Position numbers and translations under genes: made by a program. From the NCBI RefSeq assembly GCF_000585335.1, contig NZ_KK073872.1, positions 909,317 through 973,316 on the forward strand: a DNA stretch of 64,000 bases. The letters are read 5' to 3'. This stretch comes from Cloacibacillus evryensis DSM 19522. GTDB lineage: Bacteria; Synergistota; Synergistia; Synergistales; Synergistaceae. The notes under the pieces were generated by a model, which ran no database searches, had not been told where the DNA came from, and saw only the letters and a list, made by a program, of their open reading frames with translations. Positions 6,537 through 62,680 of the stretch are shown here, one piece after another. Numbering within the stretch: the stretch's first letter is position 1; every line of letters begins with the position of its first letter.

Positions 6537-6543
6537 ATAAACT

Positions 6544-6948: not shown

Positions 6949-6957
6949 CTAAGGAAA

Positions 6958-7067: not shown

Positions 7068-7103
7068 CGTTCCATCTGAGAGATTATGAGGAGGTAAGAA
7101 GTA

Positions 7104-8663: not shown

Positions 8664-8681
8664 GGCAGGGGGAAGCCAATT

Positions 8682-9074: not shown

Positions 9075-9112
9075 GCCTCTGATAACAACAAAACTTTAGG
9101 AGGTTTTTTCTG

Positions 9113-9505
9113 ATGTCACGCAAATACAGAGTCACCGTTAACGGAAAAGCATACGACGTAGATGTTGAAGAGATGGGTGCAGGCGCAGCTCCTGCTCCCG
9201 TAGCCGCCCCCGCCCCCGTGGCGGCGCCTGCCCCTGTGGCGGCTCCCGCTCCCGCCCCTGCGGCGGCCCCGGCACCCGCGGTTCCCGCCGGCGCCGGTTC
9301 GATCACCGCTCCGATGCCCGGCAAGGTCCTCAAGATACTTGTCGCCCAGGGCGCGGCGGTAACGGCAGGGCAGCTCGTCATCATCCTCGAAGCTATGAAG
9401 ATGGAAAACGAGATCTTCACAACCGTAGCGGGCTCGGTATCACAGATCTGCTGCAAAGAAGGAGATACAGTCAGCACTGGCGACACACTCCTGGTCGTAG
9501 CGTAG
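9113..9505 (+). CDS. mmdC: Biotin carboxyl carrier subunit of methylmalonyl-CoA decarboxylase
   Basis: The product has 130 residues: a short N-terminal segment, a highly repetitive Ala-Pro-Val linker (residues about 23-62), and a lipoyl/biotinyl domain with the biotinylation motif EAMKMEN, whose Lys is the biotin attachment site. It shuttles CO2 from the alpha subunit to the membrane beta subunit. The AGGAGG site is strong. The linker is encoded by near-repeated GC-rich codons and may vary in length between strains. Confidence 0.94.
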   Translation: MSRKYRVTVNGKAYDVDVEEMGAGAAPAPVAAPAPVAAPAPVAAPAPAPAAAPAPAVPAGAGSITAPMPGKVLKILVAQGAAVTAGQLVIILEAMKMENEIFTTVAGSVSQICCKEGDTVSTGDTLLVVA

Positions 9506-9544
9506 TCTGCGTTCGTGCAGTCTTTTCCTAGGGAGGAAAACTGA

Positions 9545-11819: not shown

Positions 11820-12638
11820 TTAATCCCTGTTAAGCATCTCCAATATCCCGTCGCTGTAAGCCTTTGTGCGCAGGTATCCTTCTTCATAGCACTCTTTTAC
11901 CGTGGCCTTGAAGGCGTTCTGTTCGAGGTTATAGAGCTGGCGCACAGAAATGCCTCCCGGCGTGCTGGTCTCGGCGAGCAGGCCGCCGATGTTGTCGATG
12001 TTGTTCTCCCAGACTTTGAGGCAGCCCTCAACGGTGCCGAAGGCCATCTTCGCCGCCGTTTTATGGTCGATGCCGAGCAGCAGCGCCGATTCCACGATTC
12101 CCTGGAAGAAGGCGTAGACCGGGGCGGGACCGGTGAGCGAGGTGATCGCGTTGATCTTTTCCTCTCCGAGGGCGAGGCAGGTGCCCATCGCGCCGAATAT
12201 CTTCATCAGGTCGGCCTTCTGCGGTTCGCTTACCCTTGAGTTGAAGGCGACGGCGATGACGCCGTGGCCGATCCTGCTCGGAGGGTTGGGGAGGGCGCGC
12301 GCCACGGCCGCGCCGGGAACGTTGTTTTCATAGAGCGCCATCGGGATGCCGGAAGATATCGAGACGATAGTTTTGCTCGTGAAATCGTAGGCATTGAGCG
12401 TCTTCGCCATATCGATGGCGTTGTCCGAGCGCACGCACATAAAGACGTAGTCGGCGGCGGCGATCATATCTTTAGGCTCGCCGCAGATGGAGAGTCCGTA
12501 TTTTTCGTTCATATAGGCGAGGCGTTCCACGCTTACGTCATAGATGAAAATGTCCGACGGTTTGGCGGTACCGCTTGCCGTTATTTTCTGGCTCAATATC
12601 TCCGCGATCGCACCGGAACCCATAAATCCTATTTTCAT
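11820..12638 (-). CDS. proC: Pyrroline-5-carboxylate reductase family protein (ProC-like)
   Basis: The product has 272 residues. The N-terminal Rossmann fold starts MKIGFMGSGAIAE, and ALPNPPSRIGHGV corresponds to the conserved RxMPN region. The C-terminal dimerisation signature is FFQGIVESALLLGI, then LLAETSTPGG. The family reduces pyrroline-5-carboxylate to proline, and several members also reduce the six-membered analogue piperideine-6-carboxylate to pipecolate. It is the last gene of a leftward set and starts three bases after the MFS gene. The first gene of that set resembles lysine 6-dehydrogenase, so either ring size is possible. It has KTAAKMAFGTV where many ProC proteins differ slightly, so strict proline synthesis is not certain. 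Confidence 0.85.
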   Translation of the reverse strand: MKIGFMGSGAIAEILSQKITASGTAKPSDIFIYDVSVERLAYMNEKYGLSICGEPKDMIAAADYVFMCVRSDNAIDMAKTLNAYDFTSKTIVSISSGIPMALYENNVPGAAVARALPNPPSRIGHGVIAVAFNSRVSEPQKADLMKIFGAMGTCLALGEEKINAITSLTGPAPVYAFFQGIVESALLLGIDHKTAAKMAFGTVEGCLKVWENNIDNIGGLLAETSTPGGISVRQLYNLEQNAFKATVKECYEEGYLRTKAYSDGILEMLNRD

Positions 12639-12641
12639 TGT

Positions 12642-13847
12642 CTACCACTCCTGTATCGTATTAGTTTTTCTATATACTTTAGCGCTCGCCGGCACAATGA
12701 CGGCGGTCGCCAATAATACACTTCCGTAAATTATCCTGTAAGCCAGCGCGGCGCTTCCGGTAATGCCGATAAAAAATTCCATGATGACCGGCGTCAGGAA
12801 AAAGAAGCCAGAATATATCAGGCCGAAGACCACCGCGAGGCGTGTGACGTACCTTTTGCCTCCAAGGTCCAGTATGAGGCACATAAAGGCGGGGTAGCCG
12901 AAGCCCATGCCGATGCCGAAGAGGAAGCCGCAGAGCATGAGCGCCAAAGGCGAAGAGACGGCGGTCATCGTCAGCATCATCGCCGCCGTAACGGAGGTCG
13001 CTCCCGCGGCGCAGATCTTGCGGGGCAGAAGGTCTATGAGTTTTCCGCACAGGATGCGGAATAGCAGCGCGGTGGCGGCGGATACGCTGAAAAAGTACGA
13101 GGCGGCCAGGCCGAGCTCTCCCGCGAGCTGTACGAAGGTAAGCTGTCCCGCGTCCGTCAGTGCGAAGAGCGCTGCCGATGCGGCGAAGAGTATGATCTGC
13201 GGCTTTTTGAGCAGCGCCGTATATGAGAGGCGCGCGTCATCTTTTTCTTCCGCCTCCGCGTTTTCCCCGACGCCGGCCTTCGGCAGCCTGCGAATGGCTA
13301 TCGTGCCCAAAGCGATCAGCAGGGGGAAGAAAAATATATAGCAGCGGTAAAGCTCTCTCGTGATGAGAAACTCCATCGCGGGGACGATTATCAGCGAGGG
13401 AAGGCTGTAAGCGGTAGTTATCAGCGCGATGCTGCGCCCCCTGATCTTTTCAGGGATGAACCTCCGCTCGTAGGCGGTGAGGGATACTCCCACCATACTC
13501 AATCCCAGGCCGGATATGCCCCGCCAGACGATGATAGAGCCGATCGCATCCGAAAAGAGCGCCAGGCCTGCCGCGCTCATAAAGAAGCAGGCGTAGCCTC
13601 CCCAAAGCATCTTATCGTCGCCAAAGCGCTGCTCGAAGAGAGGGACGAACGGGCGGATAAAAAATGACACGCCGTAGCATATCCCCATCGCGACGCCGCC
13701 GAGCGCCCCGATAGCGACGCCGCGCCCCTCCAGATATGGCAGCAAAAAGTAATAGCCGCTCTCCATAGAGGCGCTGATGAAGGTGATGGAAAAGAATATG
13801 AAGATATAGCCGAGTTCCGGGCTCAATATCCTCTTAGTTTCGTTCAT
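12642..13847 (-). CDS. MFS transporter
   Basis: This 401-residue protein has about 12 hydrophobic helices arranged as two halves, split by a charged loop near residue 200 (VGENAEAEEKDDARLS). This is the major facilitator fold. The loop RRFIPEKIRGRSIALIT between helices 4 and 5 is a typical MFS charged loop. The substrate cannot be read. The ATG overlaps the stop of the M20 peptidase gene by four bases (ATGA), indicating translational coupling, so it may export or import an amino acid or dipeptide-derived product. Confidence 0.8.
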   Translation of the reverse strand: MNETKRILSPELGYIFIFFSITFISASMESGYYFLLPYLEGRGVAIGALGGVAMGICYGVSFFIRPFVPLFEQRFGDDKMLWGGYACFFMSAAGLALFSDAIGSIIVWRGISGLGLSMVGVSLTAYERRFIPEKIRGRSIALITTAYSLPSLIIVPAMEFLITRELYRCYIFFFPLLIALGTIAIRRLPKAGVGENAEAEEKDDARLSYTALLKKPQIILFAASAALFALTDAGQLTFVQLAGELGLAASYFFSVSAATALLFRILCGKLIDLLPRKICAAGATSVTAAMMLTMTAVSSPLALMLCGFLFGIGMGFGYPAFMCLILDLGGKRYVTRLAVVFGLIYSGFFFLTPVIMEFFIGITGSAALAYRIIYGSVLLATAVIVPASAKVYRKTNTIQEW

Positions 13848-15250
13848 TTCGCCATCTCTAATATCGCATACGCCATCAGTCTCGTGCTCTCCATGAGGTT
13901 GGTAATGAGAAGCCGCTCGTTCGCGCCGTGCGCCCGGTCGTCTTCATTCTCGAAGGTAGCGCCGTAAGGCACCATGTTTGGCATTCTTTTTGAATATGTA
14001 CCGCCGCACATGCTGACTAAGTAGGGCTCTTTCCCGGTGGCGCCGCGGTAACCGCGCTGCAGTGTCTTTATCAGCGGGTGATCGGGGGCGTAGAACAGCG
14101 GCGCCGTTTTCGCGAATGGCTCAAAGCTGCCGCCAGCCTCGCGGAAACCGCGTTCGAGCGTGCCGCAGACCTCGTCGAAGGATATCGTCTCGGCGGGGAT
14201 GTATATGCCGCAGGTGACGGTTATGGAATGTTCGTCGCCCTCGATCATCGCCATATTTACGGTGAGCGCCCCGCAGTGCCCGTGCGAAGCCTTTATCCCG
14301 AGCGAAGCCCCGTCCGCCTCCACCCCGATCTTATCCGCGAGGAATCCTGCAAACTTTCCCGCTCTTCCCGATATGCCGGCGGCGCGGATAAGGATCAGAA
14401 GCCTTCCCACGGCGTTCTCGCCAAGCTCCGGCAAGGTAGCGTGGGCCGCCTTGCCGTAAGCGGTGAGCGTTAATTGGTCGCTGCCGAGGTTTATTTTGAT
14501 CTTCCAGCCGTTCCTGCTGGCCGTTTCGACGATCGCGTTCGAGGCCCTTTCCAGGTCGGCCCTTTTTCCTTTGAGCACGGCCTCCGCCTTTGCGGGTACC
14601 GAACCGACGCTCTCTCCGCCGGAAATTTTTGCCAGGGAGAGTTCTTCGGCGGACCTTTTTTCTAAGATGGCGGTGGAGGTAAATTTTATCGTTCCCTTCT
14701 CCGTATTGACCACCGGATAAGCTCCGTCAGGAGTAAAGGCGTATAGCGGCGGCCGCTCGCTCTTAAGATAGGCTTCAACGTCGCGCATTTTGCCGCTCTC
14801 CTCATCCATGCCGAAGATTATCCGCACCCTTTTTGAGAGAGGAAGGCCGAGATCGGCCACGGCCCTCAAAGCATAGAGCGAGCTGAATAGCGGCCCCTTG
14901 TCGTCCTGCGTGCCGCGTCCCAGGATAGCCCCGTTTTTAACGCTGCCGCAAAACGGTTCGAAATCCCAGCCTTCGCCCGGCGATACCACGTCGAGATGGC
15001 CCATTACCGCCACCGTCTCGTCGCCGCTGCCGTATTCGGCCCAGCATACCTTGCCGTCCAGATCGACGACTTTGAAATCAAGCTGCCTGGCGCAGGCCAT
15101 CGCGTGATCGGCGGCGCGGGCTATCTCAAGTCCGTAGGGAAAGCCGCTGGCATCTTCCGTATAGAGGCTGGGGATGCGCACGCTCTCGCATACGCTCTGT
15201 ACCAGCCTCGGAAGATATGACTTTACGATCCTGTCGAGCTTTTCATTCAT
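13844..15250 (-). CDS. M20-family dipeptidase (PepV/Sapep-like)
   Basis: The product has 468 residues. Metal-binding motifs are in the expected order: MGHLDVVSPG, GRGTQDDKGP and FGMDEESGKMRD, followed by a lid domain and a C-terminal GGTYSKRMPN region characteristic of PepV-type dipeptidases. These Zn enzymes cleave unmodified dipeptides, often with broad specificity. It sits between ppnP (nine bases away) and the MFS gene (four-base overlap). In a set with an amino acid symporter and dehydrogenase it would release free amino acids from imported dipeptides. Confidence 0.87.
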   Translation of the reverse strand: MNEKLDRIVKSYLPRLVQSVCESVRIPSLYTEDASGFPYGLEIARAADHAMACARQLDFKVVDLDGKVCWAEYGSGDETVAVMGHLDVVSPGEGWDFEPFCGSVKNGAILGRGTQDDKGPLFSSLYALRAVADLGLPLSKRVRIIFGMDEESGKMRDVEAYLKSERPPLYAFTPDGAYPVVNTEKGTIKFTSTAILEKRSAEELSLAKISGGESVGSVPAKAEAVLKGKRADLERASNAIVETASRNGWKIKINLGSDQLTLTAYGKAAHATLPELGENAVGRLLILIRAAGISGRAGKFAGFLADKIGVEADGASLGIKASHGHCGALTVNMAMIEGDEHSITVTCGIYIPAETISFDEVCGTLERGFREAGGSFEPFAKTAPLFYAPDHPLIKTLQRGYRGATGKEPYLVSMCGGTYSKRMPNMVPYGATFENEDDRAHGANERLLITNLMESTRLMAYAILEMAK

Positions 15251-15259
15251 TACGAGATC

Positions 15260-15574
15260 CTACAGGAAATCGCAGATATATTCCGAGATCACGCCGCAGC
15301 GGACTTTGAACATGGTATCGGCCGGCACGTCGTAGCATTCGCCGGTCTCAACGCGCCGCCAGTCGTTGTCTTCAGGGAACAAAACTTCCACCGCGCCCGC
15401 CGTCATTATTACCTTCTCCGGCCCCTCCGAGTGGAATTCAAACTCTCCGGGCAGATATACTCCGAGCGTCTGCAGCTTCCCGTCAGGATAACGGAGGGTG
15501 CGGCTCTGCACCTTGCCGTCACAGTAAATATTCACGAGTGTTTTTACGTCGACTGAATTTATGAAATCTGCCAT
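15260..15574 (-). CDS. ppnP: Pyrimidine/purine nucleoside phosphorylase (PpnP, cupin)
   Basis: This 104-residue single cupin domain is of the DUF1255/PpnP family. GVYLPGEFEFHSEGPEKVIMTAG and EVLFPEDNDWRRVETGECYDVP match the E. coli PpnP (YaiE) pattern. The family phosphorolyses several nucleosides to base and ribose-1-phosphate. Its presence between an amino acid symporter and a dipeptidase is unexpected. A 10-bp hairpin (15595-15624) lies just upstream. Confidence 0.85.
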   Translation of the reverse strand: MADFINSVDVKTLVNIYCDGKVQSRTLRYPDGKLQTLGVYLPGEFEFHSEGPEKVIMTAGAVEVLFPEDNDWRRVETGECYDVPADTMFKVRCGVISEYICDFL

Positions 15575-15594
15575 TATGATTTGCTCCTTAATTT

Positions 15595-15624
15595 ATGTGG
15601 GAGGGGGTCTTCCTCCTCCCACAT
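15595..15624 (-). promoter_or_regulatory. Intra-operon hairpin between AGCS and ppnP
   Basis: ATGTGGGAGG pairs with CCTCCCACAT, a perfect 10-bp stem, with no following T-run on the minus strand. It may stabilise mRNA ends or cause partial polarity. Confidence 0.5.
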
Positions 15625-15643
15625 CTTCAGATTGATTTTTTAT

Positions 15644-17146
15644 CTATTTTACAGCGTCTTCTTCCGCAGTGTTCTTTGCCTTATTGAGCGCCAATGCCTT
15701 TCTCGCCGCCTTTTCGGGATCGAGGAATTTATCCTCGAACTCCCTGACCAGCTTGAATATCACCGGTGAGAGCAGCGTCAGCGCGATGACGTTGACGTAC
15801 ACCGGCAGGGCCGATTGTATGTCGAGCATCATCCAGACGATCGAGGGGACGGTGCCGTGATAGAAGAAGAACATCGATACGCAGAGCGGGACCATCGGGC
15901 CTGTGTAGCGGACGAACTTGACATATTTCATGCGCTGTTCGTGCGTCTTATCGGATACACAGTAGACGATGATCGATTCAAGGTACGAGAACCAGCCTGT
16001 AGTCGTCGTCAGCGAGAAGATTATCATGAAGAAGGCCAGCGCGTGCGGGGCATATCCGCCGAACACTATCCCCAAAGCCTCGCCGACGGAGCCGGCGCCG
16101 CCGCGCCCGGTCTGCCACGCGCCGGTGATGATGACCATCAATCCGGTGATCGTGCAGACTACCATCGTGTCCATAAAGACCTCCATCGCTCCCCAAAGTC
16201 CCTGGCGTCCGGGGTGATCGACATCGACCGCGGCGTGGATGATCGGCGAGCTTCCCCAACCGGCTTCATTGCTGTAAACGCTTCTCGCGACTCCGACCTG
16301 GACGACCTTCATCACGGTGACGCCGGCAAAGCCGCCGACCGCCGCATAGGGCTGGAATGCGTAGTAGAATATTGATTTTATCGCCGCGGCGGTCGCGGGG
16401 ATGTCTTTGATGATGATAAAGATACCGGCCGCGAGGTAGCAGAGGACCATCGTCGGGACCGCTCTCTCGGCAAACTTAACGATACGCGGAATACCGCCGA
16501 GAACGATCACATAACACACTCCCGTGTAGGCGACGGCGCACATGATCGCCACCGAGCCGGGGAGTTTGAAAGCGCTTTGCAGAGCTTCGACAATTGTGTA
16601 CGGTCCGGGCGCAAAGTAGAATGATCCGATCATCGTCACTGTGAACAGCATTGAAAGTATCTTGCACCACTTCCACCCCTTGCCCTCCACGAGCGCTTTG
16701 TGGATATAGAAGGCTGCGCTTCCGTAGGAGGTCCCGTCCTCATAGCGCTGCTTGTACTGCTGCGCGAGTACGATTTCGCTCATCTTAGTGATCATCCCGA
16801 CGATAGCGGCCATCCACATCCAGAAGAGGGCCCCGGGGCCGCCGATCGCTATCGCGCTCGCGACTCCCGCGATGTTTCCGTTGCCGACCGTTCCGCCTAA
16901 CGCCGTGGCGAAAGCTCCGAATGAAGTTACTTTACTGTCTGGTACGTTGGGACCCTTTTTGCGGAAGAGCCCGCCAAGCGTGTTATAAAAAATGTCCCCA
17001 AAACGGCGGAACTGAAAGAATCTGGTGCCGATGGTGAGATAGAGTCCGAGAAGAAGGAACATGACCGCGAAATATTTATTCCAGAGAACTGTCCATGCTA
17101 TATATTCGAGTGCTGCTTCAACCTGTTTTGCTACTGTTGCCTCCAT
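15644..17146 (-). CDS. Alanine/glycine:cation symporter (AGCS family), copy 1
   Basis: This 500-residue inner-membrane symporter has about 11 helices. Family motifs include TVGNGNIAGVASAIAIGGPG (about residues 84-103) and the later YSNEAGWGSSPIIHAAVDVDHP. AGCS proteins import small neutral amino acids with Na+ (or H+). GGAGG lies seven bases before the ATG. It follows the lysine-dehydrogenase-like gene (172-base gap with two hairpins) and has a close paralogue in the same gene pair at 60873-62351. The amino acid carried is unknown. Context suggests lysine- or proline-type compounds rather than alanine, but that is inference. Confidence 0.92.
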   Translation of the reverse strand: MEATVAKQVEAALEYIAWTVLWNKYFAVMFLLLGLYLTIGTRFFQFRRFGDIFYNTLGGLFRKKGPNVPDSKVTSFGAFATALGGTVGNGNIAGVASAIAIGGPGALFWMWMAAIVGMITKMSEIVLAQQYKQRYEDGTSYGSAAFYIHKALVEGKGWKWCKILSMLFTVTMIGSFYFAPGPYTIVEALQSAFKLPGSVAIMCAVAYTGVCYVIVLGGIPRIVKFAERAVPTMVLCYLAAGIFIIIKDIPATAAAIKSIFYYAFQPYAAVGGFAGVTVMKVVQVGVARSVYSNEAGWGSSPIIHAAVDVDHPGRQGLWGAMEVFMDTMVVCTITGLMVIITGAWQTGRGGAGSVGEALGIVFGGYAPHALAFFMIIFSLTTTTGWFSYLESIIVYCVSDKTHEQRMKYVKFVRYTGPMVPLCVSMFFFYHGTVPSIVWMMLDIQSALPVYVNVIALTLLSPVIFKLVREFEDKFLDPEKAARKALALNKAKNTAEEDAVK

Positions 17147-17240
17147 GCTGATACCTCCGTAATTTGTATAATCAATAAATAAGTGTTATTATTAAATGAA
17201 AGGTGTTCAAGGGCAGTAGAGCTATATATTTGCCGGAACT

Positions 17241-17300
17241 CTGACAGATCCGTCTGTCAGTTATTACGTGAACAGGCAGGAAGGGACAACTTCCTGCCTG
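17241..17300 (-). promoter_or_regulatory. Two hairpins between dehydrogenase and AGCS genes
   Basis: CTGACAGA/TCTGTCAG (17241-17260) and CAGGCAGGAAG/CTTCCTGCCTG (17273-17300) are perfect stems with short loops. Neither is followed by a T-run on the minus strand, so mRNA processing or protection is more likely than termination. Confidence 0.5.
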
Positions 17301-17318
17301 CATTTATTACCTATAAAC

Positions 17319-18497
17319 TTATTTTTCCCAGAGATTTACGTTCTTCTCAACTTCTACCTTTTCTTTGTAGAAAATGCCGCGCTTTGCCTGTTCGGCCATT
17401 ACCCAGTTGTAGAAATCGTCGTCCTTAGCGAGCTTTTCCGCGGCCAGCATCCCCTTGCCGGTGAGCATTCCGTTCGTCATCGCGCGCGCGAAAATACCGC
17501 AGGTACAGGCCGTCGTCCAGGCCATTGAGGTGTATCCGGTCCCCGGGATCTCTTTCTGTGCGATCTCCCACGTATATGTCACTCGATCGCTGCCCTTGAT
17601 GCCCTTGACGACGATCTTGAGCACAGACATATCGACCTCTCCCGGGAGCCTCTCGTACTTCTTTGAGAAGATGTCGATGAGGATGTCGCGCGGGACCTGC
17701 TTTACCTTGCCGAGCATCCTCTCTTCCTTATCGAATAGGTCAAGCTCGTTGAGGAAGCGCATCTGAGCGGCGAGGCCGGGCCAGCGAACGGTGAAAGCTG
17801 CCATCTCCGGCACGTCCTTGAAGCTGCGGAAAAGGCCGCCGAGGCCGTTGCTGGTGAAGCATTCGAGATTTTTGAATTCCTCTATCTCAAAGTGCATGAC
17901 CTCGCTGAGCGCCGGGATGACCATTTCTTTGCCGCCGCGGACGACCGTAGTCGGCTGGTTGAACTGATTGATATTGTCCGATATTGACCAGGTCGTAAAA
18001 TAATTGAAGGGAGGACGCGGATTCACGGGGAGGCCGCCGCCGACATAGACGTACATCTCTTCGCACTTGTCGAGCTTATAGTAGCCGCGTCCGCCGAAGA
18101 AGTTGCTCATGCCGGGTTCAAAGCCGATCATCGAGATGCCGAGGCCGCCGGTCTCCTGTCCGATCTTGTCATAGGGTTCATCGGAACGGCCGTGCATACT
18201 GGAGACGTTGGATATCTTTTTGCCGAGCTCCATCGCGATCTGAGTTACCAGATATCCGACCGTGCCGGGCATCGCCGCCGTGATAATGTCACAGTCCGCG
18301 GAAAGCTTCGCAATAAGGTCTTTGTCGGTTGCCGATCCGATCACCGTTTCCACGCTTGGATAGAGGCGTTTGGTCTCGGCGAGGTTCTCTTCGCTCATGT
18401 CGAGCACGACAAAATCAAAATCACTGATCATGTCATGCACTATGCAACGGCCAACCATGCCCGCTCCGATTTGTAGAGCCTTTTTCTTTGTTGCCAT
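17319..18497 (-). CDS. Lysine 6-dehydrogenase-like (saccharopine dehydrogenase family) oxidoreductase, copy 1
   Basis: The product has 392 residues. The NAD(P) site is ALQIGAGMVGRCIVHD near the N-terminus. The catalytic domain has GFEPGMSNFFGGRGYYKLD and YVGGGLPVNPRPPFNY, which recall bacterial L-lysine 6-dehydrogenase (compare its conserved GM-N, YVGG-PV-P-PP pattern) more than true saccharopine reductases. Lysine 6-dehydrogenase oxidatively deaminates the epsilon amine, and the product cyclises to piperideine-6-carboxylate. Carboxynorspermidine dehydrogenase is another relative. AGGAGG lies seven bases before the ATG. It is the first gene after a promoter with a TGGTA-N-TACCA operator, and the paralogue at 62681-63862 has the same AGCS neighbour. 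Confidence 0.75.
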   Translation of the reverse strand: MATKKKALQIGAGMVGRCIVHDMISDFDFVVLDMSEENLAETKRLYPSVETVIGSATDKDLIAKLSADCDIITAAMPGTVGYLVTQIAMELGKKISNVSSMHGRSDEPYDKIGQETGGLGISMIGFEPGMSNFFGGRGYYKLDKCEEMYVYVGGGLPVNPRPPFNYFTTWSISDNINQFNQPTTVVRGGKEMVIPALSEVMHFEIEEFKNLECFTSNGLGGLFRSFKDVPEMAAFTVRWPGLAAQMRFLNELDLFDKEERMLGKVKQVPRDILIDIFSKKYERLPGEVDMSVLKIVVKGIKGSDRVTYTWEIAQKEIPGTGYTSMAWTTACTCGIFARAMTNGMLTGKGMLAAEKLAKDDDFYNWVMAEQAKRGIFYKEKVEVEKNVNLWEK

Positions 18498-18560: not shown

Positions 18561-18651
18561 TACGCTGTATACCCTAAACCTAGTGTTGGTACTACCATAG
18601 GTTCATCCACCAGTACAATGTGAATATATCATGTCTTTAATATATCGTCAA
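18561..18651 (-). promoter_or_regulatory. Promoter and FadR-type operator of the dehydrogenase/AGCS operon
   Basis: On the minus strand, TTGACG (18646-18651) and TATATT (18623-18628) are spaced by 17 bases. Downstream lie the perfect palindrome TGGTA-G-TACCA (18587-18597) and GTATACAGCGTA (18561-18572). The same arrangement occurs at 25094-25178. The palindrome matches the FadR-subfamily GntR consensus. Confidence 0.8.
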
Positions 18652-18908: not shown

Positions 18909-20591
18909 TTAGCGCACCATTTCGGCGTCCCAGAATTTATATTCTCCGACTTTGTTCATCCATACGTCGCGTACCTTGTCCTGATTGACCAGGTAACAAA
19001 AGTTGCCATAGTAGAGCGGGGATACAGGGGCAGCGTCCATGAGTATTTTTTCCGCGTTCTTTAGGTGTTCGTCCCGCGTTTTGCCTGATGTTTTCTGTGC
19101 CATCAAGATTTCCTGTTCAAACGCCTTATGTTCGGGGTTGAGGACGGTGTCGTTGGGCGCCACCTTTGACCTCTTCCACCTCCACTGGCATTCGTTCCAG
19201 CTGCTGTCGACTGCATATGCGTCAAAGAAGGTCATCGGGTCGGCATAATCTCCGGTCCAGTTGCCGCCGCTGATTATAAAATCTCCTCTTTTTCTCTTGT
19301 CCACGAGTACCTGCCATTCCATATTGTCAAGCTCAACTTTAATATTAAGATTGTTTTTCAGCATTTCCTGGATGGCTTCGGACATCTTTTTGAGGGATTC
19401 TCTTGTTACATAGGTGTAGGTTACCTTTGGGAACCCTTTCCCATTGGGGTATCCGGCCTCGGCAAGTAATTTCTGTGCCTCTTTCACGCGCGCCGCATTT
19501 GGATCGATACCGTATTCCGCCGCGGGTTTGCCATTTTTGCCGAGCGTCCTGAAGCTTTCTCCGGTCGAGAGCGAAAGCACGGGAGGAACTACTCCCGTCG
19601 CGGGAGTCTCGCCGCCCTTAAGGGCAGACTCGCAGATCGCCTTCCTGTTCAGCGCGAGAGCGAAGGCTTTCCTGACGCGCACGTCATTGAAGGGAGGTTT
19701 ATCTACGTTGAAAATGATATACGCGGTCTGCATTCTCGGAGTGAATACGAGGTTTGGTTCTTCGGCGATGAGCCTTGGGATCTCTGCCGGCGGTATCTCC
19801 GGGTTCACGTGGATATCTCCTGCGTTAAAGGCGTTGAGCGCGGTGGTCTGATCGGATACGAATACCATTTTTACCTTGTCTATCTTTACATTCTTACTGC
19901 CATAATATTTCGGGTTTTTGGCAATGGTGAGGTTGTCTCCTATTTTATAGGATTCCAGTACGAACGGTCCGTTAGAGATACAGGTCTTTGGGTTCTTTTC
20001 CCATCCGTCGCCGTGTTTTTCCACTATATCTTTCCTTACCGGCATGAAGGAGAAGAACGTCGTAAGGTTGAGGAAGTATGGTACCTTTGATTCCAGGATG
20101 ACCTGAAACGTCTTTTCATCCAAGGCCTTTACGCCGACTTTGTCTGCCGTTGCCTTTCCGTCAAAGAATGCTTTCGCATTTTTTATATATGAAGTTCCCA
20201 TATATGAATACTCTGAACCGGCTTTGGGGTCAAGCAGTCTCAGCCAGGCATATTCAAAGTCTTTAGCTGTGACGGGTTTTCCGTCAGACCAGGTGATATT
20301 CGGCTTCAGATAGAAGGTATAGGTAAGCCCGTCCGGGGAAATGGTATACTTCTCAGCCTGTCCGGGGACCAGCTTGCCGTCTTTTGTGTCCTTCATCAGG
20401 CCCTCAAATATATTTCCTATCACAAAGCTTCCGCCGGAATCGTCTATCGAGGGATCCCAGGCCTTGATTTCCTTGCCGTGGTTGAAGACGAGCACTTTGG
20501 GCGCCGCGTATGACCCGGCCGCCTGTGAGAATAACGCTGCGATTGCAAGTACGATAACTACTATTGACCTGACGCTTTTTTTGATTGACAT
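18909..20591 (-). CDS. Peptide ABC transporter substrate-binding protein (family 5, OppA/DppA-like)
   Basis: The product has 560 residues from the ATG at 20591, seven bases after AAAGGAG. An ATG further upstream lacks a site. Residues 1-30 are a signal peptide ending near AAGSYAAPK, with no lipobox Cys. The mature part shows the family-5 pattern: KVLVFNHGKEIKAWDPS at the start, GLTYTFYLKPNITWSDGKPVTAKDFEYAW, and FNVDKPPFNDVRVRKAFALALNR. These proteins bind di- or oligopeptides in the periplasm. It is downstream of and co-oriented with the permease and ATPase genes (130-base gap). Confidence 0.9.
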   Translation of the reverse strand: MSIKKSVRSIVVIVLAIAALFSQAAGSYAAPKVLVFNHGKEIKAWDPSIDDSGGSFVIGNIFEGLMKDTKDGKLVPGQAEKYTISPDGLTYTFYLKPNITWSDGKPVTAKDFEYAWLRLLDPKAGSEYSYMGTSYIKNAKAFFDGKATADKVGVKALDEKTFQVILESKVPYFLNLTTFFSFMPVRKDIVEKHGDGWEKNPKTCISNGPFVLESYKIGDNLTIAKNPKYYGSKNVKIDKVKMVFVSDQTTALNAFNAGDIHVNPEIPPAEIPRLIAEEPNLVFTPRMQTAYIIFNVDKPPFNDVRVRKAFALALNRKAICESALKGGETPATGVVPPVLSLSTGESFRTLGKNGKPAAEYGIDPNAARVKEAQKLLAEAGYPNGKGFPKVTYTYVTRESLKKMSEAIQEMLKNNLNIKVELDNMEWQVLVDKRKRGDFIISGGNWTGDYADPMTFFDAYAVDSSWNECQWRWKRSKVAPNDTVLNPEHKAFEQEILMAQKTSGKTRDEHLKNAEKILMDAAPVSPLYYGNFCYLVNQDKVRDVWMNKVGEYKFWDAEMVR

Positions 20592-20721
20592 GATGATGCT
20601 CCTTTCGACTAACTCCGGTAATGCCGGTTCCATGCATTATAGGGACAACTGTTTTCCGCCTGTGTCTCAGAGTTATTTTGTGTCGTCGTTTGCACGGCAT
20701 TTCTCCTCTCTGTTTACGCCG

Positions 20722-21690
20722 TTAAAAGAGGTGGCAGGCTACGTAATGTTCCGAGCCTAAATTTTTAAATTCAGGAGCCGCTTCCGAGCAAATCTTTTTG
20801 GCATAGCGGCAGCGTGTGCGGAATCTGCATCCTGACGGCGGGTTGAGCGGACTTGGCACGTCTCCCTCAAGGATGATATTATTTTTCTCCGCCCTCGGGT
20901 TGGGTATCGGAATCGACGAGAGCAGCGCTATCGTGTACGGATGCTGCGGATTATTGTATAGTTCGTCCGCGGTAGTTACCTCCATAAGGCCTCCAAGGTA
21001 CATAACGCCGACACGATTTGAGATATGCCGGACCATGGAGAGGTCGTGTGCGATAAAAAGATAGGTGAGGCCGATCTCCTGCTGCAGGTCTTCCAGCATG
21101 TTTACTATCTGCGCCTGCACCGAGACATCAAGCGCCGATATCGGCTCGTCGCATATTATGAATTCAGGCATGACAGAGAGCGCTCTGGCGATTCCTATCC
21201 GCTGCCTCTGCCCGCCGGAAAATTCATGAGGATATCTGTTCGCGTGGTTCTTGCGCAGGCCGACCCTTTTTAGCAGCTCAAAGATTCGTTCCTGGCGTTC
21301 TTTGCCCGAGGCGATCCTGTGGATGTCAAGCGGTTCGCCGATGATGTCGGCAACGGTCATCCGGGGATCGAGTGAGGCGTAAGGGTCTTGAAAGATCATC
21401 TGTATCTTCTTACGGTAAGGCATGAAGGATCTGGCGGGGAGTTTTGCGACGTCGATGCCGTCGTAATATATCTCGCCGGCAGTCGGTTCGTATAGGCGCA
21501 TGACAGTCCGGCCGACGGTCGTCTTTCCGCATCCGGATTCACCGACAAGCCCAAGCGTCTCTCCCTTTCTGATATAAAAGCTGACGTTGTCAACGGCTTT
21601 TATCTCTTGTATTTTTTTTGAGATCAATCCTTCATCTTTATAGAAGTATTTTCTAAGGTTTCTGACGTCAAGAAGAATATTATCGTTCAA
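20722..21690 (-). CDS. Peptide ABC transporter ATP-binding protein (OppF/DppF-like)
   Basis: This 322-residue ATPase has Walker [13 protein letters not shown], signature [14 protein letters not shown], and Walker [13 protein letters not shown]. Its C-terminal oligopeptide/dipeptide extension carries the Cys cluster [14 protein letters not shown] typical of OppD/F proteins, probably an iron-sulfur site. It overlaps the OppD-like gene by 11 bases, so the two are translationally coupled and form the heterodimeric motor. Confidence 0.93.
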
Positions 21691-22717
21691 TAGAGCTGAT
21701 GCCTCCCTTCATCGCATCGTAGCGGCCGCAGCGCGGCGCATGTTCGTCAAGCAGCCAGCAGGCGGCCTTATGTCCCTCTCCGACCTGGTAGTACCCGGGA
21801 CAGTGTCTCGTACATATATTCATCGTGAAGCTGCATCTGGGCGAGAATGGACAGCCTTGCGGCGGATTTAGGAGATCAGGAGGCGTTCCCGGTATCGGAA
21901 TGAGCCTATGACGCGCACCTGTGGCCACATTGGGTATCGATCTCAGCAATCCCATCGTATACGGATGCGCGGGATTGAAGAAGACATCGTCGGTTTTCCC
22001 CTCCTCCATAACCAATCCGGCGTACATGACGTCTATTCGGGAACAGATGTCCGCCACTACGCCCAGATCGTGCGTAATCAGGATCGTAGAGGTCCCTGTG
22101 CTTTGTCCAAGTTCTTTTATGAGCCGGATGATCTGCGCCTGTATCGTTACGTCAAGCGCCGTCGTCGGCTCGTCGGCGATAAGAAGCTCCGGACGGCAGG
22201 AAAGCGCCATCGCTATCATCGCGCGCTGCCTCATTCCGCCTGAAAACTCATGAGGGTAACAGGCGGCGCGCCTCTTGGCATCGGGAATGCCGACTGTCTC
22301 CAGCATTTCGATAGCTTTTACCGCGGCCTCCTTTTTTGTGAGGCGCTGGTGCTGCAACAGTGCTTCCTCGATCTGAAAACCGACCCGCAGCACAGGGTTA
22401 AGGGAGGTCATGGGGTCTTGAAAGATCATGGCGATGTTGTTCCCGCGTATTTTTGTCATTTCGTGCTCCGCTTTTTTCAGAAGGTCTTCACCTTTGAAGA
22501 GGATCTCTCCTTTCACGACCCGTCCCGGGTGCAGCAGAAGACGCATTACGGAAAGAGACGTGACGCTTTTCCCGCTTCCAGACTCCCCGACAATGCCGAG
22601 AGTTTCCCCGCTGCCTATGCGGAGGTCGATGCCACGTATTGCCTTTACCTCGCCGAGGTGTGTGAAGAAAGAGGTATGCAGATCCCGTATTTCAAGTACG
22701 CTTTTATTCTCAGCCAT
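21680..22717 (-). CDS. Peptide ABC transporter ATP-binding protein (OppD/DppD-like)
   Basis: This 345-residue ATPase has Walker [12 protein letters not shown], signature [14 protein letters not shown] and Walker [13 protein letters not shown]. The C-terminal extension has [20 protein letters not shown], the OppD-type Cys cluster. It is the partner of the OppF-like protein. It starts eight bases after the OppC-like permease gene. Confidence 0.93.
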
Positions 22718-22725
22718 GATCCAAC

Positions 22726-24009
22726 CTACTTTCTCAACTTGGGGTCAAGCGCATCTCTCATTCCGTCGCCAAGCAGATTGAATGTGAGTATCGTAAGAGA
22801 GATAGCGGCCGCGGGGAAGAGCAGTTGCTGCGGATAGGTATATAATCCCTCAAGGGCGTCGTTGCAAAGCGTCCCCCATGAGGCTACGGGGGCGGAGACG
22901 CCGAGCCCTACGAAGCTCAAAAAAGCTTCGGTAAAAATCGCGTTGGGAATCATCATTGTGATGGTGACCATGATCGGTCCCATTATATTTGGCAGTAGGT
23001 GGCGTAAAAGTATATACCCGGTCGGCGCGCCCAATGATTTGGCGGCGAGGACGAACTCCTGTTTTTTCAGAGAAAGCACTTCTCCGCGTACCAGCCTTGC
23101 CATGCTCACCCAATAGGTAAGCCCGATCGTCAAAATTATCGTGAAAAGGCCGCCGCTGTCGAAGAGAACGCGAAGCAGGATCACATAAAGCAGCGTCGGG
23201 ATAGTATTTATTATATCGACGACTCTCATCATCGCATCATCCACCCTTCCTCCGCAATAGCCGGAGACGCCTCCAAACAACACCCCGATCACGAAACACA
23301 CGAGAGCCGTTGCAAACCCGACGGCGAGCGATATGCGCGCGCCGTATACAATCCTGATAAAGATGTCTCTGCCGAGCGCGTCGTTGCCAAAGATATGACT
23401 CTTATTCCATACCCGAAGCGAGGGCTCCACCTCTTTACCGTCTACGGTGACAATGTATCTCTTCATATTTTCAAAAGCGCGCTCTTCTGAGGGCAGATCG
23501 ACGTCATCACCGCGTTCGGCGGATCTCCTCAACGAATAGAGTTTTTTCTTGGCGGCAAAATATTGGCTGTAATCCACCTTTATATCCTTGCCGTCAAGTA
23601 CGAAGCTTTTCTGACGCGCCATTAGATCGTCGCCGGTGTTTTCCGCCATTTTCCCAAGAGTGCCGTTACGTGACACCTGAAGGACGTTGTAATCGTTAGT
23701 GACATAAAAAGATACGCCTGTGCCAGGTATCTCGTATAGTTCAAGCCGGCAGGGAACGTTGGAGTATTCCAGATTCTGGTCTGAATAGGTATATTTCCAA
23801 AAATATGGAAGGAATATCGCCGTGATAGTCAGAAGCACAATAAAGACGAGAGAGAACATCGCCGTCTTATTTTCCCGGAATCGCCTCCAGACGTCCTGAT
23901 AGAAGGTGAGGCTTTTGCGCTTGATATCCTCGGATTTTGTAAAATCATGTTCCGTTTCTTTCCATAGATCGATGTCATTGAGATCCAGTCTTTCTTCTAT
24001 ATTTGCCAT
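22726..24009 (-). CDS. Peptide ABC transporter permease (OppC/DppC-like) with enlarged periplasmic loop
   Basis: The product has about 427 residues from the ATG at 24009 (a GTG immediately precedes it). The N-terminal OppC domain with TM1 is at about residues 50-72. The transport core carries the EAA-type loop EFVLAAKSLGAPTGYILLRHLLPN. Between TM1 and TM2 is an insertion of about 130 residues (roughly 75-205), longer than in E. coli OppC. It is predicted periplasmic and could contact the binding protein. The gene is 11 bases from the OppB-like permease. Confidence 0.9.
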   Translation of the reverse strand: MANIEERLDLNDIDLWKETEHDFTKSEDIKRKSLTFYQDVWRRFRENKTAMFSLVFIVLLTITAIFLPYFWKYTYSDQNLEYSNVPCRLELYEIPGTGVSFYVTNDYNVLQVSRNGTLGKMAENTGDDLMARQKSFVLDGKDIKVDYSQYFAAKKKLYSLRRSAERGDDVDLPSEERAFENMKRYIVTVDGKEVEPSLRVWNKSHIFGNDALGRDIFIRIVYGARISLAVGFATALVCFVIGVLFGGVSGYCGGRVDDAMMRVVDIINTIPTLLYVILLRVLFDSGGLFTIILTIGLTYWVSMARLVRGEVLSLKKQEFVLAAKSLGAPTGYILLRHLLPNIMGPIMVTITMMIPNAIFTEAFLSFVGLGVSAPVASWGTLCNDALEGLYTYPQQLLFPAAAISLTILTFNLLGDGMRDALDPKLRK

Positions 24010-24023
24010 CACGTTTCCCCCTC

Positions 24024-24941
24024 TTAGTCAAATTTGATCCTGGGGTCAATAAGGACATAAAGGATATCGACCAAAAGGACCATCAGAACAAGGAGTACGC
24101 CATAAAATACTGTGACCCCAAGTATCAGGGAATAATCGCGGTTAAGGATGCTTGTCGTGAAAAGACAACCTATGCCCGGTATGCCGAAAACCTTTTCGAC
24201 GACGAATGATCCGGTGACGATGCTTGCCACACAGGGGCCCATATAAGTGGCTACGGGGATCAGCGCGTTGCGCAGCGCATGGCGCGTCATAACGACAAAA
24301 CTGGTGAGCCCCTTGGCTTTGGCGGTACGAATGTAATCCTGCTGGAGCACTTCGAGCATCGACGTACGTGTGAGGCGGGTTATAAATGCGATGGAGAAAG
24401 CTCCTATCGCAAAGGCCGGGCCGATGTAGTCTTTGAAGTTCTCCGCTCCGTAGGACGGCACGAGCCCCAGCTTTTTATTGAAGACATAAAGATATAGTGT
24501 CGCAACGACAAAACTCGGTATCGTAGTCCCGAGTGTCGCCAGCAGCATCGACACCCTGTCCGACATTCTGTTATGCCTCAGTGCCGCGTAGACGCCGAAA
24601 AATATGCCGAAGGCAAGGATAAAAGCGACGGCAAGCAGGCCGATCTTTGCCGAGTATGGGAAACCGCTCTCAATAATGGCGCGTGTAGTTACGCCTCTTT
24701 TATGATAGGAGACGCCGAAATCTCCTTTGACGAAATTTAACAGGTAAGTGAGGTACTGGACTCCCAATGGTTTGTCAAGTCCGTATTTTGCTTCAAGCGC
24801 AGCCCGCGTCTCATCCGGCAGTCCCCGCGCGCTTGTAAAAGGGCTTCCAGGCAGATTATGCATTATCAAAAACGTAATGGTAATAACGAACCAAATGGTA
24901 ATAACCGCGGATATAATGCGCCTTAGAGTATATTTCAGCAT
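24024..24941 (-). CDS. Peptide ABC transporter permease (OppB/DppB-like)
   Basis: This 305-residue permease has six helices. The N-terminal OppB signature (LKYTLRRIISAVITIWFVITITFLI in part, then HNLPGSPF) and the cytoplasmic coupling loop QQDYIRTAKAKGLTSFVVMTRHALRN are visible. It is the first gene of the five-gene importer unit (B, C, D, F, binding protein) and lies downstream of a promoter with a FadR-type operator. Confidence 0.93.
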   Translation of the reverse strand: MLKYTLRRIISAVITIWFVITITFLIMHNLPGSPFTSARGLPDETRAALEAKYGLDKPLGVQYLTYLLNFVKGDFGVSYHKRGVTTRAIIESGFPYSAKIGLLAVAFILAFGIFFGVYAALRHNRMSDRVSMLLATLGTTIPSFVVATLYLYVFNKKLGLVPSYGAENFKDYIGPAFAIGAFSIAFITRLTRTSMLEVLQQDYIRTAKAKGLTSFVVMTRHALRNALIPVATYMGPCVASIVTGSFVVEKVFGIPGIGCLFTTSILNRDYSLILGVTVFYGVLLVLMVLLVDILYVLIDPRIKFD

Positions 24942-25093: not shown

Positions 25094-25178
25094 TACGCTG
25101 TATACATTAAAATCTGGTAATACCACTGGTCCTTTTACGAGCTGCGATAAATATATCATGTATAAATATCCACGTCAA
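25094..25178 (-). promoter_or_regulatory. Promoter and FadR-type operator of the peptide ABC operon
   Basis: On the minus strand, TTGACG (25173-25178) and TATATT (25150-25155) are spaced by 17 bases. Next come the perfect palindrome TGGTA-T-TACCA (25115-25125) and GTATACAGCGTA (25094-25105). Boxes, spacing and order duplicate those at 18561-18651. Confidence 0.82.
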
Positions 25179-25396: not shown

Positions 25397-26167
25397 TTAA
25401 TTATTCATCTTCCAGTACGGGGACGGTATGTCGGTGATCAATTCGGGGTGCGTTCTGCGCATGACTTCCGCGGTTTCGAGCAGGTGAGTCTTCAGCGTTT
25501 CGCCGGCCTCCTCGGGATTTTTTTCTTCGATGGCCCGGATAATTGCCGCATGCCGTGATTTAATGAGTTCGATCCATCCCTTTTCCATCAGCATGTCGGG
25601 GTGGACGAGGATGTTGTTGCGTTCGACAAGGCTGTTGATGCTCTCATTCAACCTTGAAAGTATCGGGTTGTGCGCAGATTCCGTCACGAGATGGTGCAGG
25701 AGCGCCTCCCATTTCCCATTCTGGGCCTGCTCTTCCGGCGTTACATAGGGGCAGGCGATAAAGCTTTCATAACATTCGCGGAGCTTTCTGATGTCGTTAT
25801 CCGTCCGGCGCATCGCGGCGATCTTTGCCGCCGGCACCTCGATAATGAGGCGTACCTCTAATTGGTATGACACGAAATCCGCCGGGAGCATCTGCAGGCT
25901 TTTCAGGGAGTCGTGCATCCCAAAGCTGTCAAGGCTTTTTATAAAGGTGCCCTGGCGTTCGCGCACCTCGAGAGATCCCTCGGCCACCATCGATATTACC
26001 GCCTCACGCAGGACGTTTCTGCTGACGTCGAGCATCTGCGCCAACTCCCGTTCGGAAGGGAGCTTGTCTCCCTCGTTGAAGGGGCCGGACGACACCAGCT
26101 CTCTGAGTTTATCCTGGACTATTTTTTTCTTGCTCTCCTTTTTTTCAAAAGGTATGCCGATTTTCAT
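25397..26167 (-). CDS. GntR-family transcriptional regulator, FadR subfamily (FCD domain)
   Basis: The product has 256 residues. The winged helix-turn-helix at about residues 15-80 contains EGDKLPSERELAQMLDVSRNVLREAVISM and VRERQGTFIKS, the canonical GntR DNA-binding pattern. The remainder is an all-helical FCD ligand domain with spaced His residues (LLHHLVTESAHNP, SRHAAIIRAI) that bind a metal and a carboxylate effector. FadR-subfamily proteins recognise TGGT-N3-ACCA palindromes. Three perfect sites of that type lie at neighbouring promoters (18587, 25115, 27285). I infer that this protein controls them, repressing until a carboxylate or amino acid ligand binds. Confidence 0.9.
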   Translation of the reverse strand: MKIGIPFEKKESKKKIVQDKLRELVSSGPFNEGDKLPSERELAQMLDVSRNVLREAVISMVAEGSLEVRERQGTFIKSLDSFGMHDSLKSLQMLPADFVSYQLEVRLIIEVPAAKIAAMRRTDNDIRKLRECYESFIACPYVTPEEQAQNGKWEALLHHLVTESAHNPILSRLNESINSLVERNNILVHPDMLMEKGWIELIKSRHAAIIRAIEEKNPEEAGETLKTHLLETAEVMRRTHPELITDIPSPYWKMNN

Positions 26168-27228: not shown

Positions 27229-27295
27229 TTGACAATACCTTTGATTGCCTTATAATTTTTATTATAAAATACTGGTTGGTCCTCTGGTATTACCA
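27229..27295 (+). promoter_or_regulatory. Promoter and FadR-type operator of the glycyl-radical operon
   Basis: TTGACA (27229-27234) and TATAAT (27252-27257) are both perfect consensus with a 17-base spacer. The perfect palindrome TGGTA-T-TACCA (27285-27295) lies 27 bases after the -10 box and 17 bases before the ATG. A protein bound there would block elongation or initiation. Confidence 0.88.
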
Positions 27296-27312
27296 AAAAA
27301 TTGGGTGATCAT

Positions 27313-28074
27313 ATGGCGGTCAAGGGGAGAATCTTCAATATAGCGCATTACGCGGTGCATGACGGTCCGGGGATACGGACGACGGTATTCCTCAAAGGTT
27401 GTCCGGCGCGCTGTCTGTGGTGCTGCAGCCCTCAGTCGCAGAGTTTTGAGATAGAGCGCTCTGCCGGCGGAGAAAAGATATTCGGCCGCGACGTTACAGC
27501 CGCGGAGCTTTTTGCGGAGGTACGGCGCGACGCGCCGTTCTGGCGGCGCTCAGGCGGCGGCGTCACGCTCTCTGGCGGCGAGGTGATGGCCCAGCCTGAT
27601 TTTGCCGTGGAGTTCCTCGACATTTGCCGCGCCCATAATGTTCACACGGCGATCGAAAGCTGCCTCTTAGCCTCTTATGATGCGGCGATGCGTATTGCGG
27701 AGAGGACTGACTTCATACAGTTCGACCTCAAGGCTATGGATACTAAACTGCATAAGCGGCTGACCTCGCGGGGAAATGAGGATATTCTCGAAAACGCCAT
27801 GGCCGTCCTGCGCGGCGGCATACCGGTGCTGGTCAGGTTCCCGCTCGTCCCGGGGCTGAATGACGCGGAGGAAAATATCCGAGCCATGGGGTCTTTTCTT
27901 GAAAGTGGTAGAGAGGGCGTCTCCCTTGAGGTATTGAGGTATCACAGAATGGGCGTCGGCCTCTACGAGGAACTGGGCCGAAGTTATCCGCTGGAGGATG
28001 TCGATCCGCCAACAGACGAAGAATACGCGAGGGTCAAAGAAATTTTAAACAATTATAGGATCAGAGTTTTATAA
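27313..28074 (+). CDS. Glycyl-radical enzyme activase (radical SAM), short form
   Basis: This 253-residue radical SAM protein begins at the ATG at 27313. The SAM cluster motif is CPARCLWC (CxxxCxxC) preceded by HDGPGIRTTVFLKG, the signature of PflA-type activases. Unlike the second activase of this operon it lacks the ferredoxin-like insert with two extra 4Fe-4S clusters. It would abstract hydrogen from the Gly of a glycyl-radical enzyme, presumably the adjacent one 19 bases downstream. Confidence 0.9.
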   Translation: MAVKGRIFNIAHYAVHDGPGIRTTVFLKGCPARCLWCCSPQSQSFEIERSAGGEKIFGRDVTAAELFAEVRRDAPFWRRSGGGVTLSGGEVMAQPDFAVEFLDICRAHNVHTAIESCLLASYDAAMRIAERTDFIQFDLKAMDTKLHKRLTSRGNEDILENAMAVLRGGIPVLVRFPLVPGLNDAEENIRAMGSFLESGREGVSLEVLRYHRMGVGLYEELGRSYPLEDVDPPTDEEYARVKEILNNYRIRVL

Positions 28075-28093
28075 AAACGGAGGATGGATCACG

Positions 28094-30466: not shown

Positions 30467-30479
30467 GGAGGAGACAGGC

Positions 30480-32873: not shown

Positions 32874-32877
32874 AACA

Positions 32878-33816
32878 ATGGAAAAAGGAAACGTGGCCGG
32901 AACCGTCCTGCGCATAGAAAAAAGCTCCATCCACGACGGAGACGGACTGAGGACCGTACTCTTCCTCAAAGGCTGCCCCCTGCGCTGCCTCTGGTGCTCC
33001 ACGCCGGAATCGCAGCGCGGGGCCCCCGAACGGGGCCTCGCGCGCGAAAAATGCACCCTTTGCGGGCGCTGCGTACAAGCGTGCCCGCACGGAGCGCTGA
33101 GCAAAAAAGACAATAAAATAACCCATGCCAGAGACAAATGCGCCGGCTGCCTCAAATGCGCCGCCATCTGTCCCGAATCGGCCATAACCCCCTACGGAAA
33201 AACCATGACGGCGGCGGAGGCGGTCAAAGAAATCGCCAAAGATGAAATATTCTACTTTCACTCCGGAGGGGGCCTCACCGTCAGCGGGGGAGAGCCGCTC
33301 GAACAAAGCGGCTTCGTCCTGGAGATACTTCGCGGCTGCCGCGAACGCGGCATAGACTGCGCCCTTGAAACAAGCTTCTTCGCGGCGTGGGAAAAAATAG
33401 AGCCGCTGCTGCCTTACATCAGCCTGCTCCATGTGGACATAAAACACCCCGACGCGGAAAAACACAAAAAACTGATCGGAGTCGACAACCGGCTGATACT
33501 GGAAAACATCGGACGCGCCGACGCCTTCCCGCACAACTTCGGCATCGTCGTGCGCACGCCGCTCGTCCCCGGCATAAACGACGCGGACGAAGACATAGCC
33601 AAACTCGCGGGAATAGTGAAAAGGCTCAAAAAGCTGCGATTCATGGAATTCCTCGCCTATCACCGCTTGGGAACGGAGACTTACAAAAGACTGGAGATAC
33701 CTTATCCGCTTGCGGAGATAAACACGCCCGACGATTCTTATATGCGGCGCAAGGCCGCGATATTCAAAACCGCCGCGGGCGTTGAGGTGAGGATAAATGG
33801 CAGGATATTCGAATAA
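32878..33816 (+). CDS. Glycyl-radical enzyme activase (radical SAM) with ferredoxin insert
   Basis: The product has 312 residues. The radical SAM motif is CPLRCLWC after HDGDGLRTVLFLKG. A two-cluster ferredoxin insert follows, with CTLCGRCVQACP and CAGCLKCAAICP, as in activases of glycerol dehydratase and related enzymes. It starts four bases after glycyl-radical enzyme 2 and shares its AAA/GAA-rich codon style, so these two genes probably form a functional and evolutionary pair. Confidence 0.93.
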   Translation: MEKGNVAGTVLRIEKSSIHDGDGLRTVLFLKGCPLRCLWCSTPESQRGAPERGLAREKCTLCGRCVQACPHGALSKKDNKITHARDKCAGCLKCAAICPESAITPYGKTMTAAEAVKEIAKDEIFYFHSGGGLTVSGGEPLEQSGFVLEILRGCRERGIDCALETSFFAAWEKIEPLLPYISLLHVDIKHPDAEKHKKLIGVDNRLILENIGRADAFPHNFGIVVRTPLVPGINDADEDIAKLAGIVKRLKKLRFMEFLAYHRLGTETYKRLEIPYPLAEINTPDDSYMRRKAAIFKTAAGVEVRINGRIFE

Positions 33817-62351: not shown

Positions 62352-62680
62352 AAAAATACACCTCCTGATTATTTGTCGAACTGATGGAGCAAAAACAAAT
62401 AACACTGTGAAACAAACTAAATAGGAGCGGGTATGCCGTACCCGCTCCTGTTAAAGCGAGTATGTCAGGTAAGGGGGTATGTATCTGTATTTATGATTAT
62501 TGTAATTTGGTAAATTTTGTTGTTTGGCGGCGGGCCGAATGTGAAATGCCCGATAGGTTTCATTTATGTGCAAGGCTCCCATTCTATTATGCCGCTCAAG
62601 CCGTGGCGTTTATAGTCTCTATTTAGTCTCTTTAGGAAGCCTTGCACAGAATGTTTTAAACTTCAAAGGATCGTGAGGCG
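62352..62680 (-). other. Intergenic region with two inverted repeats
   Basis: AGGAGCGGGTA/TACCCGCTCCT (62426-62452) is a perfect 11-bp hairpin. TGTGCAAGGCT (62567-62577) and AGCCTTGCACA (62638-62648) form an 11-bp stem around about 60 bases. No gene is seen. Neither has a T-run on the minus strand. Confidence 0.55.

Follow-up and report, generated by a model that had tools for sequence, protein, structure and literature searches.

Here we describe a six-gene operon in a 64,000-nucleotide stretch of the Cloacibacillus evryensis DSM 19522 genome (contig NZ_KK073872.1, positions 909,317 to 973,316; hereafter the window), which encodes a dehydrogenase of the saccharopine/lysine-dehydrogenase family (DH), an AGCS-family symporter, a PpnP-like cupin, a PepV-like dipeptidase, an MFS transporter and a ProC-like reductase, and in which DH is transcribed first and ProC-like last (minus strand, 18497 to 11820). 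Our preferred reading, which we regard as having an even chance of being correct, is that these genes make up a catabolic operon which is conserved in Synergistota and controlled by a GntR/FCD regulator, that in the window genome it forms one small regulon together with an oligopeptide (Opp) importer and a cassette of two glycyl radical enzymes (GREs), and that DH and ProC-like act as an NAD-linked pair in the anaerobic degradation of an amino or imino compound, probably derived from peptides. The substrate of DH is probably neither lysine nor ornithine, judging from its predicted pocket. A first-pass annotation of the same DNA had reported the dehydrogenase, ProC, symporter, dipeptidase and MFS genes, all of which are present on the minus strand where it placed them, while it overlooked the cupin as the sixth gene of the operon as well as a second DH–AGCS pair in the same window (63862-60873). 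Its view of these genes as a functional module is upheld by the conservation of both gene order and regulation, and its remark that this is not a standard named operon was borne out.

DH of the window type (at least 62% identity) was found in 7 of 188 Synergistota genomes, namely the window genome itself (G000, a single contig of 3.49 Mb), G137, G169, G163, G031, G032 and G009, with two copies each in G000 and G169 and hence nine proteins over the seven genomes. G000, G137, G169, G031 and G032 all have the gene order DH-AGCS-PpnP-PepV-MFS-ProC, and because exactly this six-gene order recurs in five genomes from three genera and two families, the arrangement is not due to chance. A check of gene-neighbourhood conservation, as suggested in the first pass, thus gave a positive outcome, with a reduced or rearranged set in the other two genomes: DH-AGCS-PepV-ProC followed by an ornithine-cyclodeaminase-family gene in G163, and DH-AGCS-PpnP-ProC-PepV in G009, where PpnP and ProC are separated by a GntR gene. 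Intergenic distances in the module are mostly 2-83 bp or 4-bp overlaps (PepV-MFS, 4-bp overlap or 2 bp apart; MFS-ProC, 3-15 bp apart), and the DH-AGCS gap is 172-256 bp in the five genomes with the full order and 68-256 bp across all module genomes. A pattern scan of 84,980 genomes for the module outside the phylum, run as a close-relative scan with the window's own relatives left out, returned only two loci, both from Synergistota. As for the neighbours of the module, G009 carries genes for a TRAP solute-binding protein, an octopine-dehydrogenase-family protein, a mu-crystallin-family protein, an Orr-like racemase and a serpin (L043 2732-18543), and in G031 and G032 the genes for GcvPA and GcvPB (glycine decarboxylase in split form) and a gene of the ATP-NAD-kinase family lie directly upstream of, or divergent from, DH (L041 4017-8153; L042 10967-15098).

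The operon shares an operator-like element with two neighbouring transcription units. The palindrome TGGTANTACCA did not occur in 100 shuffles of the window and has exactly three copies in the 3.49 Mb of the genome, which are clustered within 9 kb. The copies lie upstream of DH, of oppB and of the first GRE activase (Table 1). Upstream of DH, a promoter-like site (TTGACG-17-TATATT, 18651-18623, minus strand) is followed by the palindrome TGGTAGTACCA, and a second shared element, GTATACAGCGTAT, comes after the palindrome both at DH and at oppB. FCD-type regulators of the PdhR/LldR kind bind TGGT...ACCA palindromes, and the GntR/FCD protein encoded between the window operator sites (25397-26167) is probably the regulator that binds the three putative operators. 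TGGTANTACCA sites were found at the corresponding loci of G137 (2/2), G169 (2/2), G163 (1/1) and G166 (1/1), with the DH-upstream site in G137 and G163 being a one-mismatch variant and the operator in G166 being present at the radical cassette only. The module genomes carry a GntR/FCD gene in or close to the locus: orthologues of the window regulator are linked to the locus in G137, G169 and G163 (as they are in G166), and another GntR/FCD gene is found near DH in G031 and G032. A comparison with Rfam gave no riboswitch, for glycine or otherwise, near DH/AGCS, and an alignment of the DH-AGCS gap contained no conserved RNA element common across lineages.

The activase-GRE1-GRE2-activase cassette is kept in 13 Synergistota genomes (GRE1 at least 64% identity), five of which also have the module, and it is found near ProC-like homologues without a window-type DH nearby as well (G007 C10, G009 C2). 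GRE2 is close to structure 8ID1. Both radical enzymes share the glycyl radical family and the catalytic CVE and RVAGY motifs with trans-4-hydroxyproline dehydratase HypD; however, at 589 and 617 bits they miss the HypD cut-off (NF043068, 1100 bits), and this identity was rejected. The true HypD of the window genome is encoded elsewhere (G000:C1:499675-502023, 1136 bits), and HypD over the cut-off occurs in 71 of the 188 Synergistota genomes. In gut-type Synergistota the operon appears to be co-expressed with the two oxygen-sensitive radical enzymes.

Table 1 Features of the operon and its putative regulon (positions in the window).
Feature	Position	Strand	Remarks
DH, saccharopine/lysine-dehydrogenase family, NAD-type, 392 amino acids	17319..18497	-	Sacchrp_dh_C 127.6 bits
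AGCS-family Na+:amino acid symporter, dehydrogenase-linked clade	15644..17146	-	TIGR00835 345.7 bits
PpnP/DUF1255-family small cupin	15260..15574	-	PF06865 87.5 bits
PepV/Sapep-like M20 dipeptidase	13844..15250	-	TIGR01887 354.6 bits
MFS transporter	12642..13847	-	PF07690; 4-bp overlap with PepV
ProC-like putative imine reductase, divergent clade, two-residue deletion in substrate loop	11820..12638	-	TIGR00112 144 bits
Putative palindromic operator TGGTACTACCA	18587..18597		between promoter and DH start
Putative operator copy upstream of oppB	25115..25125		
Putative operator copy upstream of glycyl radical enzyme activase	27285..27295		
Oligopeptide ABC transporter (oppB, C, D, F and solute-binding protein family 5)	18909..24941	-	own operator copy
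GntR/FCD regulator	25397..26167	-	PF00392+PF07729; gene between window operator sites
Co-regulated cassette, four genes	27301..33816	+	not HypD
First activase	27301-28074	+	
Glycyl radical enzyme 1 (GRE1)	28094-30466	+	
Glycyl radical enzyme 2 (GRE2)	30480-32873	+	
Second activase	32878-33816	+	
AGCS2, second symporter copy	60873..62405	-	68% identical to AGCS
DH2, second dehydrogenase copy	62681..63862	-	77% identical to DH

Pocket residues are changed in three proteins of the operon. For DH, the AlphaFold2 model (predicted local distance difference test score 92.6) has as its best solved fold 3ABI, the L-lysine 6-dehydrogenase PH1688 of Pyrococcus horikoshii (EC 1.4.1.18; Foldseek rank 1, template modelling (TM) score 0.84/0.93), followed by carboxyspermidine dehydrogenases (CASDHs). 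The two proteins agree in fold, domain order, NAD-type glycine-rich motif and length, and the family-level naming of DH as lysine-6-dehydrogenase-like stands. However, DH is only 30% identical to 3ABI, whereas other paralogues from this genome or phylum reach 36-39%. In the tree the nine window-type DHs (group A) form one clade (100/100), whereas 3ABI clusters with group C, another paralogue encoded elsewhere in the same genome (97/94; both branches long). The predicted pocket of DH is lined by N177, Q178, Q181, N217, G220, W327 and R104, all of which except N217 are invariant in the nine orthologues. Three residues retained by 3ABI (which itself reads EEY, DGLR and SMSR) and by groups B, C and D, namely the acid in (E/N)EY (position 178) and the arginines in DGLR/DGSR and SM(S/G/A)R.TG, are changed in all nine group A proteins, which have NQF, (N/D)GLG and SMAW.TA, and thus Q178, G220 and W327, at these positions. 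The Arg of RPA is replaced by Gln in group A (the same Arg is also lost in group D), and the SFM-PE segment, with an extra residue and HGR in DH, has become S(S/A)M(H/N)GR. The lysine or ornithine assignment of the first pass is therefore not sustained, as the charged residues kept in 3ABI and the paralogues are lost from every window-type DH and 3ABI groups with a paralogue encoded by another gene.

CASDHs (8DEB, 8H4Z, 4INA) share the superfamily fold with DH (TM about 0.8) but differ in the active site described in PMC10413350, where His228-Glu229-Glu230 and Glu188 correspond by alignment to Ser216-Asn217-Gly218 and Gln178 of DH. An identity as carboxyspermidine or carboxynorspermidine dehydrogenase was rejected on the absence of this triad and of Glu188, which also makes carboxynorspermidine, named in the first pass as the kind of substrate that would overturn its proposal, an unlikely substrate. 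By its residues DH is neither a CASDH nor a canonical lysine 6-dehydrogenase, and it may prefer a different, less cationic substrate. An acidic residue, D33, is located at the end of strand 2 in DH and suggests NAD as its cofactor; since an acidic residue ends this strand in both oxidoreductases, ProC-like would use NAD too.

The ProC-like protein retains the Rossmann and P5CR_dimer domains of ProC (TIGR00112; 2RCY, 3GT0) and a PGG loop with hydroxyl side chains. Its score of 144.3 bits lies below the proC equivalog cut-off of TIGR00112 (196.75), which 12 of 14 control genomes pass, and all aligned homologues of the phylum clade lack two residues of the loop in which Gly173-Ser174 of E. coli lie. 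In the window clade Met119 is replaced by Leu and Thr235 by Ile (E. coli numbering), and the remaining substrate residues compared read Thr for Val229, Thr for Ser231 and Ser for Thr236. The change at position 235 is tolerated on its own, since Plasmodium 2RCY has the same Ile. No ProA over the cut-off was found in the window genome, which encodes six ornithine-cyclodeaminase-family proteins, and ProC-like therefore does not complete the glutamate-to-proline route; given its divergent sequence as well, a housekeeping role in proline synthesis was rejected.

The AGCS symporter passes the TIGR00835 subfamily cut-off (345.7 against 272.65 bits) and matches the AgcS sodium/alanine symporter (PDB 6CSE) at the family level (169 bits), from which it differs by its separate clade and by a replaced GN(M)VQ(T/S)NS segment. 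The symporters paired with dehydrogenases of groups A and D fall together in one clade (100/100) that excludes MmAgcS and the three other AGCS proteins of the genome, in all of which the GN.VQ.NS segment is kept; the DH-linked clade has APGPYT instead and is three residues shorter there. Because the symporters paired with groups A and D form this one separate clade, dehydrogenase and symporter appear to have diverged together, and, as the pairing is also seen in a second group of dehydrogenases, transporter and enzyme may form a general couple. The AGCS-paired group D dehydrogenases were found in G146, G137, G128 and G170 (L110, L111, L112, L114), and a EutH-family gene adjoins the locus in G137 and G170. 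As for the other two enzymes of the operon, the dipeptidase passes the Sapep/PepV subfamily cut-off (TIGR01887, 354.6 against 207.95 bits) and misses the PepV equivalog (NF005591, 368.6 against 435), and the cupin misses the PpnP equivalog (NF007875, 53.6 against 143) while its match to Pfam PF06865 holds.

From this gene content we infer a catalytic direction, a substrate class and a role for each transporter. Opp would import peptides that the PepV-like dipeptidase would split, and the DH-linked AGCS symporter would move the free compound. DH would oxidise the amine or imino carbon of this compound, with DH and the radical enzymes making an imine or semialdehyde, and ProC-like would consume the NADH by reducing a cyclic imino acid of the same pathway, made either by DH or by a GRE.

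Several observations weigh against this scheme. The 69-bp AGCS-PpnP gap could split the operon into two transcripts, the pocket residues of DH were placed by alignment and on a predicted model free of ligand, and DH2 retains Asp at 217. Moreover, TGGTANTACCA is absent from G031 and G032, where operator and radical cassette are not linked to the module, and hence the radical enzymes are not essential partners everywhere.

Three other explanations were considered. In the first-pass annotation, DH was a lysine 6-dehydrogenase (or its ornithine analogue) whose cyclic imine is reduced by ProC-like to pipecolate (or proline) in a redox-balanced conversion. Against this, cationic amino acids are not known substrates of AGCS carriers. 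3ABI is indeed the nearest fold, NAD-type motifs in both enzymes would balance the redox, and E. coli ProC is able to reduce piperideine-6-carboxylate and to oxidise pipecolate (PMC12899673); nevertheless, none of the nine orthologues has the three Arg or the acid pair found in 3ABI, DH is less similar to 3ABI than its paralogues are, and ProC-like falls under the proC cut-off with a shortened and remodelled substrate loop, which leaves this conversion very unlikely. It is also improbable, if slightly less so, that DH splits a secondary amine of the opine type, for example an N-carboxyalkyl amino acid like carboxymethyllysine, to yield an amino acid together with a semialdehyde, and that the latter cyclises before ProC-like reduces it. 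Saccharopine and carboxyspermidine dehydrogenases of the same fold do use secondary amines (PMC10413350), C. evryensis is reported to degrade carboxymethyllysine (review PMC12735817), and the octopine-dehydrogenase-family, mu-crystallin-family and racemase genes beside the module in G009, like the GcvPA/GcvPB genes upstream of DH in G031 and, judging from the same sequences, in G032 (which would fit glycine release), point in this direction. However, the opine-dehydrogenase and GcvP neighbours are each confined to one lineage, DH has Gln/Asn where acidic residues flank the nicotinamide in CASDH, and the reported products of carboxymethyllysine are carboxymethylated amines and acids rather than lysine-derived imines.

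A small but appreciable chance remains with a general operon for amino-acid and peptide utilisation, whose genes answer to a common signal but do not form a common pathway, DH and ProC-like having separate substrates. The mixed contents (cupin, MFS, dipeptidase), the DH+AGCS pair that also stands alone (second copy, group D) and the ProC-like homologues that occur without DH are in line with it, while the six-gene order kept over two families and the confinement of the operator to this locus speak against it. With somewhat less than even confidence, we further suggest that the pathway of our preferred reading is a previously undescribed anaerobic amino-compound degradation of Synergistota, in which a GRE pair, a respecialised DH with its own AGCS clade and a respecialised ProC-like protein are joined in one GntR regulon; no description of such a regulon was found in the literature searched, although this absence is weak evidence, as only open-licence papers were covered. 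Synergistota ferment amino acids in animal guts and in digesters, and their substrate range is in large part unexplained. The defined operator makes the pathway testable, since knowing what induces one of the promoters would reveal the substrate, and the annotations lysine 6-dehydrogenase, ProC and alanine symporter in Synergistota may be wrong as a set.

Convergent to the second DH–AGCS pair of the window lies a class-III aminotransferase gene (hemL-like, under the cut-off; 59027-63862 for the three genes), and the DH2+AGCS2+aminotransferase trio is also kept in G169 (L039), there with a GntR/FCD gene. Elsewhere in the genome, the group B and C dehydrogenases are encoded in tandem (L007 186-12552, genome positions 3134185-3146551) together with two proline-racemase-family genes, an SSS transporter, an NhaC gene and sarcosine/glycine-reductase component B subunits (GrdG/GrdF-like), the GrdF-like frame ending where a selenocysteine codon is expected; this cluster is possibly an unstudied reductive pathway of the proline or lysine type. 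The window further contains a gene for a methylmalonyl-CoA mutase subunit and genes of the Na+-pumping methylmalonyl-CoA decarboxylase type (propionate route, 4411-10669), as well as an IS1634-family transposase (52045-53904) in a stretch of low G+C content (0.47 vs about 0.57).

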